Of a stretch of 64,000 nucleotides of DNA, positions 46,201 to 49,386 are shown in pieces (within the stretch, counting starts at the first letter, position 1; the number at the start of each line of letters is the position of its first letter). The translations under genes were made by a program, and so were the position numbers. This DNA is from Acidimicrobiia bacterium. GTDB taxonomy: Bacteria; Actinomycetota; Acidimicrobiia; Spongiisociales; ZC4RG35. Location: contig JANQOU010000002.1 in the NCBI GenBank assembly GCA_028285585.1, forward strand, positions 124,001-188,000, written 5' to 3'. The notes under the pieces were generated by a model. That model did not search any database and was not told the DNA's origin. It worked only from the letters and a program-made list of their open reading frames with translations.

Positions 46201-46587
46201 TCATTGATTTGCCTCATCTCGAGCGAGGTCGGCCACGACAGGACCACTTCCGTCGAGATCGACCAGTATCTGATTGATCTGGGAGGGAATGACAAGACCC
46301 AGTTCCTCCGCAAGAGGCGCGATCCGGGCCGGGTTCTCCAGACGAGCGATCTCCATCGTCAGCTGCCGGTTGATAGCCGTTTGCTCGGTGATTGCGCGAT
46401 CCAGCTCGGCAAGCTCGAAGGCAGCCCGATCGAGCGATGTGCGGGCAAATCCCAGCCCGAGAAAGGCCACGACGGCTATGAGCGCCATGATCATCCAAGG
46501 AGCCACCGTCGGCTTGCGCAGGCGCCGACCCCGAAGAACTCGAAGCCCCTCGGTTCGATCCGGTTGAGGTGCCGGACGCACGGTCAT
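46201..46587 (-). CDS. ftsL: FtsL-like bitopic division protein
   Basis: 128 residues from the ATG at 46587, overlapping the rsmH stop as ATGA; the frame's upstream extension lies inside rsmH. A basic cytoplasmic tail, one membrane helix (WMIMALIAVVAFLGLGFA) and a short coiled coil (FELAELDRAITEQTAINRQL) give the FtsL/DivIC plan. Sequence identity in this family is poor, so assignment relies on topology and position between rsmH and ftsI. Confidence 0.85.
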   Translation of the reverse strand: MTVRPAPQPDRTEGLRVLRGRRLRKPTVAPWMIMALIAVVAFLGLGFARTSLDRAAFELAELDRAITEQTAINRQLTMEIARLENPARIAPLAEELGLVIPSQINQILVDLDGSGPVVADLARDEANQ

Positions 46588-47516
46588 GCGGCCACCTTCT
46601 CTGCGGCGCGGAGGATGGCGGAGCGAGAACGGGGGTTTGCCTCGATCTCGGTAGCGCTGGAGCGAACTGGCTTCCGAGTGAGCACCCTCAACTCGGCTGT
46701 GACGCCACAGCCGCATACCGGAAGCTCTGGAGGGCATATGCAACCGGTGGCGCCCTCGGCAAACCGTTGCTTGACGATTCGATCCTCCAGAGAGTGGTAG
46801 GAGATCGCGATCACCCGGCCGCCAGGAGCGACCATGTCGATCGCGTCGTCGATGCCGTCCGCAACAGATGTCAGCTCGTCGTTCACGGCTATCCGAATCG
46901 CTTGAAATGTGCGTCGGGCGGGATGACCCGCCCGACGCCGGGCCGCAGGCGTTGCCTCTGCGATGACGGTGGATAGCTGGGCAGTGGTCTTGATGGGGCG
47001 AGAGGCGACGATGGCCCTTGCGATGCGCCGAGCCATCGGCTCTTCGCCGAACTTGGCGATGATCCCGGCCAGGTCCTTCTCAGGCCAGCCGTTGACGATC
47101 TCGCCTGCATCAGATGAGGCGTCCGGGCCCATGCGCATGTCCAGTGGGCCGTCGTTGCGGAACGAGAAGCCACGGGCTCCGTCGTCGAGTTGACGCGAAG
47201 AAACCCCGAAGTCGAACAGGATGGCGCTTGGACGATTCTGCTCAGAGCCATCCAGCAGCGTCTTCAGGTCACCGAAGTTGCCTTGAATGACCGAAACGGG
47301 AAGCGATCCGACGTTGGCTTGCGCCTCCGGGTCCCGGTCGATTGCAACAACGGTCACGTCTTCTCCAAACTCATTCAGCAGGCGCCGGGTATGGCCACCC
47401 CCGCCAAACGTCGCGTCAACCACGACGCCCGGTATCACCGGAGCAACCAACTCGACGACTTCCTCGACCAGGACCGGCCTGTGGTACTCACTCGTCTCTG
47501 TCCCGTCCTGGTCCAT
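46584..47516 (-). CDS. rsmH: 16S rRNA (cytosine-1402-N4)-methyltransferase RsmH
   Basis: 310 residues from the ATG at 47516. A TTG nine codons upstream (47543) is open but lacks a better ribosome-binding site. SAM-binding motif VVDATFGGGGHTRRLL; further motifs ILFDFGVSSRQLDDGARGFS and ISYHSLEDRIVKQRF. It methylates C1402 of 16S rRNA. Its ribosome-binding G-run and start codon form one arm of a perfect 17-bp inverted repeat in the mraZ-rsmH gap. Confidence 0.95.
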   Translation of the reverse strand: MDQDGTETSEYHRPVLVEEVVELVAPVIPGVVVDATFGGGGHTRRLLNEFGEDVTVVAIDRDPEAQANVGSLPVSVIQGNFGDLKTLLDGSEQNRPSAILFDFGVSSRQLDDGARGFSFRNDGPLDMRMGPDASSDAGEIVNGWPEKDLAGIIAKFGEEPMARRIARAIVASRPIKTTAQLSTVIAEATPAARRRAGHPARRTFQAIRIAVNDELTSVADGIDDAIDMVAPGGRVIAISYHSLEDRIVKQRFAEGATGCICPPELPVCGCGVTAELRVLTRKPVRSSATEIEANPRSRSAILRAAEKVAA

Positions 47517-47613
47517 TGCCAGCCCCCCGGGCGCTGGTACCAACTAGAAGCGGGCGGAGTCAGGGGCCTTCCAATTGGTTCCGGGGGGCTGGCAATGAGC
47601 CAGCCGATGGCTG
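47514..47613 (-). promoter_or_regulatory. mraZ-rsmH leader with mutually exclusive RNA hairpins that can hide the rsmH start
   Basis: CATTGCCAGCCCCCCGG (47514-47530) and CCGGGGGGCTGGCAATG (47581-47597) are perfect 17-bp inverted repeats with a 50-base loop. In the minus-strand mRNA the second arm contains the rsmH Shine-Dalgarno G-run and AUG, so the stem would block initiation. The first arm can instead pair with GGCUGGC just upstream (7 bp, 5-base loop; plus 47599-47605 with 47587-47593). That GGCUG can in turn pair with CAGCC further upstream (47609-47613). All lies between the mraZ stop (47616) and the rsmH start. Confidence 0.7.
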
Positions 47614-48087: not shown

Positions 48088-48119
48088 GCCACTATGACCC
48101 ACTTTGCCCCACTTGTCAA
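48088..48119 (-). promoter_or_regulatory. mraZ/dcw promoter overlapped by three MraZ boxes
   Basis: Minus strand: TTGACA (48119-48114), a 17-bp spacer and CATAGT (48096-48091). Inside and around it, GTGGG occurs at 48112-48108 and 48102-48098 and GTGGC at 48092-48088, exactly 10 bp apart on one face of the helix. The shared context AAAGTGGG is like known MraZ boxes. Occupancy would cover the spacer and -10. Confidence 0.75.
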
Positions 48120-48824: not shown

Positions 48825-49328
48825 TCAGGCGGACTCTTGGAGGAGGAAGGGCTGCCAGTCAGGGTCGACCTGGAAACCGGTCGACGCATAGATCCAGGCG
48901 AAACGACGAGGCGGGCCGGGGTCGGTGCGAAGAGCGAACCCACTCTCATCCGGGGTCCGGTTTCCTTTCTTCACGTTGCATGAGCGACAGCAGGCCACAA
49001 CGTTCTCCCACGTGTGGTCACCACCGCGTGATCTGGGCGTGATGTGATCCAAAGACTCGGCGGGACCACCGCAGTACTGGCATCGATGGCCGTCGCGACC
49101 GAAGACGGCGCGTCTCGTAACCGGGACCGCGCGTCGGTATGGCACTTTCACGAAGCGATTGAGGCGAACCACAGACGGGAGCTGGACGGAGAACGACTCG
49201 GCATGCCAGGTCTCGTCACGCTCGACGACGACGCTCGCCTTCTCACTGAGGACGAGGATCAGTGCCCGGCGCTCGTTGACGACGGACAAAGGTTCGTAGC
49301 TGGCGTTGAGAACAAGGGCTCTTGCCAT
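48825..49328 (-). CDS. HNH endonuclease-domain protein
   Basis: 167 residues from the ATG at 49328; the frame opens 14 codons earlier. The N-terminus (MARALVLNASYEPLSVVNER) is typical of a widespread actinobacterial family. The HNH core has zinc-binding pairs CQYCG and CCRSC, with LDHITPRSRGGDHTWENVV supplying the His-Asn-His residues. Physiological role unknown; it is a stand-alone chromosomal gene, with no toxin or intein context. Confidence 0.88.
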   Translation of the reverse strand: MARALVLNASYEPLSVVNERRALILVLSEKASVVVERDETWHAESFSVQLPSVVRLNRFVKVPYRRAVPVTRRAVFGRDGHRCQYCGGPAESLDHITPRSRGGDHTWENVVACCRSCNVKKGNRTPDESGFALRTDPGPPRRFAWIYASTGFQVDPDWQPFLLQESA

Positions 49329-49386
49329 TGCCTTTCCTCGACCTACCTGACTGAGGCCAAGGGTAATCACAGACTCAGGATGCGAA

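Follow-up and report, generated by a model that had tools for sequence, protein, structure and literature searches.

The mraZ-rsmH junction is known to carry a structured RNA in other Actinobacteria. This element, the mraW RNA (RF01746; Weinberg 2010, PMC2864571), is expressed in C. glutamicum (PMC3890552) and in C. diphtheriae (PMC5784534), and in the latter species the rsmH transcript begins downstream of the motif. We surveyed the same junction in an acidimicrobial window, by which we mean the whole 64,000-nt stretch of DNA that was analysed. The RF01746 covariance model (gathering threshold, 50 bits) gave no match at the window locus at E ≤ 1. None of 60 relatives exceeded the cut-off, nor did any of 20 further loci of the class. 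The same model recovered its positives in other Actinobacteria, and our own leader model found no RF01746 loci. Among the other Rfam 15 families, none matched the leader convincingly. A literature search found no published description of an rsmH leader in Acidimicrobiia. The earlier note on this DNA had called RNA-level control at this place undescribed. That agrees with the lack of an Rfam 15 match and of a paper, and it has to be qualified by the mraW RNA known at the same junction (PMC2864571). The family described here appears to be new; it shows very strong covariation and is found in about 70% of the sampled Acidimicrobiia.

A second group of relevant systems concerns enzymes that modify the ribosome. 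The 16S rRNA methyltransferase gene ksgA is autogenously controlled. For sgm, a CCGCCC motif reportedly mediates autoregulation, a result attributed to Kojic in 1996. Both sgm and kgmB encode 16S G1405 methyltransferases and are negatively autoregulated at translation (PMC2791848).

The leader and its locus

Coordinates are positions in the window, and the element, mraZ and rsmH all lie on the minus strand. The gene rsmH (mraW; 46584-47516, ATG at 47516-47514) encodes the 16S rRNA m4C1402 methyltransferase, as identified by the NCBIfam equivalog TIGR00006 (304 bits against a cut-off of 154) and by PF01795 (E 5e-99). It is preceded, after a gap of 99 nt, by mraZ (48032-47616), the transcriptional repressor of the dcw cluster, which matched TIGR00242 at E 8e-24, a score under the curated cut-off. 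A promoter-like site read from the sequence, TTGACA-17-CATAGT, lies 5′ of mraZ at about 48089-48119, and we presume that the leader-bearing transcript starts there. Three GTGG repeats with an exact 10-bp period run across its spacer and -10 element, and they resemble the MraZ boxes of mraZ self-repression. Further upstream of the mraZ region there is a small HNH endonuclease-like gene (48825-49370, minus strand) with weak similarity to the IscB/Cas9 HNH domain.

The earlier note had reported a perfect 17-bp inverted repeat in the gap, and it is exact at 47514-47530 and 47581-47597. We found that it lies within a longer repeat of 23 nt and 91% identity (47508-47530 and 47581-47603). The mRNA folds these arms into a stem, P1, with CUGGCUCAUUGCCAGCCCCCCGG as its 5′ arm (47581-47603) and CCGGGGGGCUGGCAAUGGACCAG as its 3′ arm (47508-47530). 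As had also been claimed, the downstream arm holds the G-rich initiation region of rsmH and its AUG, and it extends over codons 2-4. Enclosed by P1 is an apical stem, P2, whose lower part pairs ACCAA (47575-47579) with 47539-47543; four of its five pairs changed on both sides in the order-level alignment described below. The upper part pairs GGAAGGC (47566-47572, one base bulged) with GCUUCU (47546-47551). The apical loop CCCUGACUCCGCCC (47552-47565) is conserved across relatives. The 3′ side of P2 is joined to P1 by the linker ACCAGCGC (47531-47538), and at this place other orders have a further hairpin, P3, with an AGAMA loop.

The fold of the region beat shuffled sequences only moderately (z = -2.7; 2 of 200 shuffles were as good). 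A sequence scan for promoter-like sites found none between the two P1 arms, which agrees, as far as such a scan goes, with the absence of a transcript start there. There was also no terminator-like site (a G+C hairpin followed by a U-run) at the element, and an intrinsic terminator or attenuator was therefore rejected. The P1 arm occurs once in the genome apart from its own partner, with no other near copy, so the element is not a dispersed repeat or MITE.

Conservation and distribution in the Acidimicrobiia

The 60 relatives were searched with the RsmH protein and with the mraZ-rsmH gap. The gap was much better conserved than the flanking genes. In a genome of another genus (G017), all 98 matched nucleotides were identical, while the RsmH proteins were 67% identical. 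A 100-nt sliding comparison with the same genome gave about 90% identity across the element, against 50-81% in its surroundings.

The pairing was then evaluated in two alignments. In A1, which comprises 58 genomes of the window's order, 94.4% of the cells were paired, compared with 31-53% in slid versions. Seventeen of 33 pairs had changed on both sides, with 84 such cells against 20 in shuffles. The second alignment comprises 86 sequences of a longer form and was fitted to the model, so its paired percentage (90.6%, against 38-51% when slid) is biased upward. In this long form, 43 of the 46 pairs had changed on both sides (703 such cells, 200 in shuffles); a separate count over 46 pairs gave 23 with two-sided changes. 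On the mRNA strand there were 381 G-U pairs and 141 A-C pairs, an excess that one would predict if this strand is the folded RNA. In the low-GC family f56, the P1 arms read AUAGCCAGCUCUCUAG and CUAGAGAGCUGGGUAU; the stem sequence was rewritten and the pairing retained. Compensatory change across the helices, the mark of a structured cis-regulatory RNA, is thus present, as the earlier note had expected of the relatives' gaps. Judged from these alignments, the comparative test is decisive and the strongly covarying hairpin is real, not a product of chance.

Two covariance models from separate sequence sets were used to follow the element, and each found members of the other's set. With a cut-off of E ≤ 0.1, the first, built from A1, matched 210 of 296 genomes of the class, including the one-megabase low-GC genomes of f56. 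The second was built from nine long-form sequences and matched, at E ≤ 0.001, 280 of 395 class genomes in 149 of 184 genera, the window included (E 7e-9). Among 296 phylum-wide genomes, matches were confined to members of the class. By name, the relatives were mostly Acidimicrobiia, together with loosely classified actinobacterial metagenome assemblies, and it was from these names that the window's own place in the class was deduced. When 84,980 species genomes were searched for exact copies of the loop core, 84 stretches came up, 80 of which were read. Sixty-six of these were followed by rsmH and two ended at contig ends after mraZ; the remaining 12 are close to the chance expectation (about 7.5). 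It seems that the element is essentially limited to one locus per genome, upstream of rsmH.

Most other orders have the longer form, with the third arm P3 and its AGAMA loop (L198, L152-L157, L193 and others, alignment A4). In the window's order, P3 is gone and the rest of the structure is retained. The element was not detected in the class members L171-L175, L177, L187 and L196. When the sequences of L171-L174 were read by eye, the mraZ stop and the rsmH start seemed to share bases (GTGA/ATGA), which would suit a direct coupling of the two genes in place of the leader.

Start codon, apical loop and the probable control of rsmH

In the window, the rsmH ATG is inside the downstream P1 arm, and 52 of the 58 genomes of the order likewise have an in-frame ATG or GTG in this arm. 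In L024, L026, L090, L091 and L094, all of the same order, the RNA is kept with no in-frame start inside P1 (ATA, or an out-of-frame ATG). Among the long-form sequences with a readable RsmH N-terminus, a motif-based tally, 34 lack an in-frame start within the 3′ arm and begin downstream of it, and 23 have one there; the other 29 sequences were not readable. Many P3-type relatives start rsmH 0-75 nt downstream of P1. Judged by these starts, burying the AUG therefore cannot be what the element does throughout the class, nor can it be its whole role. The earlier note had proposed that RNA-level control of rsmH works by sequestering its start. The structure that buries the start in this order, with its compensatory changes, upholds part of that proposal; burial is not class-wide.

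The distance from the mraZ stop to P1 also varies: genomes of the window's order span -4 to 46 nt, and those elsewhere 3 to 157 nt. There is thus no fixed coupling geometry, and a fixed translational coupling of mraZ and rsmH was rejected. In a computed fold that mimicked a terminating ribosome, the AUG stayed closed after removal of 12 or 15 nt past the mraZ stop and opened when at least 20 nt were removed.

The most conserved part of the element is its near-invariant apical loop, CUCCGCCCGC. In the 86 long-form sequences, its C's are kept in 85-86 of 86 (the last C in 80 of 82), its U in 85 of 86, and its first and second G in 82 of 86 and 81 of 85, respectively. The leading CCC of the loop is absent in L157 and replaced in L183 and L184. 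The CCGCCCG of the loop (47551-47557) is the same sequence as 16S rRNA 1399-1405, which surrounds the RsmH methylation target C1402; the counterpart of C1402 is at 47554. In each of seven 16S rRNAs of the class, CCGCCC occurred only once, at 1399-1404. Against the target site in these rRNAs ACUCCGCCCG scored 9 of 10, compared with at best 7 of 10 elsewhere in the 16S. The estimated chance of such a match ranges from 0.4%, with uniform random sequence as the null, up to about 6% when shuffles preserve the composition, and taken alone (p about 0.004-0.06) it is no more than suggestive.

Two further relations to 16S rRNA were rejected. Base pairing of the loop with 16S reached a complementarity of at most 7-8 of 10. 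The linker sequence GUGCCAGC is similar to 16S 515-522, but it is variable, and chance alone should yield a match of such length somewhere in 16S. A second CCGCCCG in the mRNA occurs at a perfect 12-bp hairpin with a 4-nt loop inside rsmH (46911-46938), in the codons of an HPAR motif and at a similar place in several relatives. It probably reflects coding constraint.

On this comparative evidence, cis-acting RNA control of rsmH is quite probable. Most likely, the element is a leader that controls translation and has a trans-acting factor bound to its loop, a reading that we hold with some reserve, with RsmH as the leading candidate. RsmH is the best candidate because the loop carries the seven nucleotides around C1402, because the element is found at almost no place other than upstream of rsmH, and because, of the operon's products, RsmH is the enzyme known to act on RNA. 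The translational autoregulation of sgm and kgmB (PMC2791848) offers a precedent. Several observations count against it. A near-invariant U precedes CCGCCCG where 16S has A1398; the f56 loop reads CCGCCCA and the f56 16S rRNA CCGCCCG; and four relatives have CCACCC. In addition, the human mitochondrial homologue METTL15 binds RNA in vitro without sequence specificity (PMC10828496), and the loop of the mraW RNA in other Actinobacteria has no CCGCCC. We name RsmH as the ligand only tentatively, at less than even odds. That it represses its own translation and the dcw operon by binding, and perhaps methylating, this copy of its rRNA target is a still more doubtful proposal.

Located in the dcw mRNA between mraZ and rsmH, the leader would control rsmH expression in cis. 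When P1 is closed, a state that in the window's order hides the initiation region, the AUG and codons 2-4, rsmH and the coupled downstream genes would be poorly translated. A trans-acting factor on the apical loop would set how long P1 stays closed. Under autogenous repression, RsmH would become free once no unmethylated 30S subunits are left, and by binding the loop it would keep the leader shut. A positive loop could operate instead: a 2026 preprint reports that C1402 methylation aids the translation of stem-loop mRNAs (PMC13317604), and by this route rsmH translation could depend on methylated ribosomes. It has long been asked why rsmH, a gene for ribosome modification, stands among the division and cell-wall genes in most bacteria. 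A leader displaying RsmH's rRNA target at rsmH itself makes a direct link between ribosome maturation and division-gene expression testable. If the autogenous scheme is true, completed 30S maturation would feed back on cell-wall synthesis and division.

Other readings of the element have to be weighed against a translational-control leader bound by a trans-acting factor. It might be a metabolite-sensing riboswitch, in which CUCCGCCCGC and the AGAMA loop form the pocket for a ligand such as a cell-wall precursor or SAM and thereby control the dcw operon. The three-way junction of most orders would suit this, with its strongly covarying helices and its two loops of high conservation. However, metabolite riboswitches usually occur at several genes and this element has essentially one locus per genome, and the window's order has lost P3 yet kept the rest; we consider a riboswitch improbable. 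A similarly small chance is given to an RNA processing or stability element, in which the stem would set the downstream message apart from mraZ, for instance as a target for a nuclease or a hairpin that protects the 5′ end, with the loop recruiting the enzyme. The stem keeps its place between the two genes while its spacing from the mraZ stop and from the rsmH start is variable, and the C. diphtheriae mraW motif precedes the rsmH transcript start (PMC5784534). But this explanation accounts neither for the start inside P1 in 52 of the 58 genomes nor for the sequence-specific loop.

The earlier note had suggested a thermosensor or spontaneous bistable switch made of ordered, mutually exclusive hairpins. 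The alternative pairing on which it drew can be formed: GGCUGGC (47605-47599), preceded by CAGCC, can pair with GCCAGCC (47593-47587), and in many members local CUGG-N7-CCAG hairpins can be drawn on both sides, with 87% of the cells pairing. However, only one of eight alternative pairs covaried, compared with an average of 2.3 in shuffles, and the alternative fold was about 21 kcal/mol worse than the main stem. The computed probability that the AUG is unpaired stayed below 0.02 up to 45 °C, and at 55 °C it came to about 0.02-0.03, so heat would leave it closed. A conserved loop sequence would not be needed either. The hairpin order and the temperature response thus found no support, and we regard such a switch as very unlikely. 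Least credible is a double-stranded DNA site, for MraZ for example, with the palindrome as a protein-binding site: the loop complement does have a pair of G-runs, spaced by about 10 bp, that loosely resemble MraZ boxes, and MraZ-box-like repeats do stand upstream of mraZ in the operon, but pairing is kept while the stem sequence changes, G-U outnumbers A-C on the mRNA strand, and the G-runs are irregularly spaced with one missing in L157, and MraZ binding at the loop DNA was rejected on the irregular spacing and stem covariation.

Comparison with known systems

The closest counterpart is the mraW RNA. Both are candidate cis-regulatory hairpins of actinobacteria in the mraZ-rsmH gap with a conserved C-rich apical loop. 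However, the mraW loop, ACUUCCCC, lacks CCGCCC, whereas the Acidimicrobiia leader has ACUYCGCCC. The stems differ in sequence as well; moreover, the Acidimicrobiia RNA has a P3 arm in most orders, and within the window's order it overlaps the start of rsmH. A distant common origin of the two is possible, because the loop of one relative, L194, reads ACUUCGCCC.

With sgm, kgmB and ksgA, the system shares an enzyme that targets the 16S decoding region. It differs in that sgm and kgmB encode G1405 resistance enzymes (and ksgA encodes KsgA) with no known conserved structured leader family, whereas autoregulation by RsmH is only proposed. The autogenous leaders of ribosomal protein genes, which mimic rRNA, offer a further possible likeness, a single cis element per genome by the gene of an RNA-binding protein, with a loop that may imitate the rRNA site. 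In contrast to those proteins, RsmH is a modification enzyme, and its binding to its own leader is so far a proposal.
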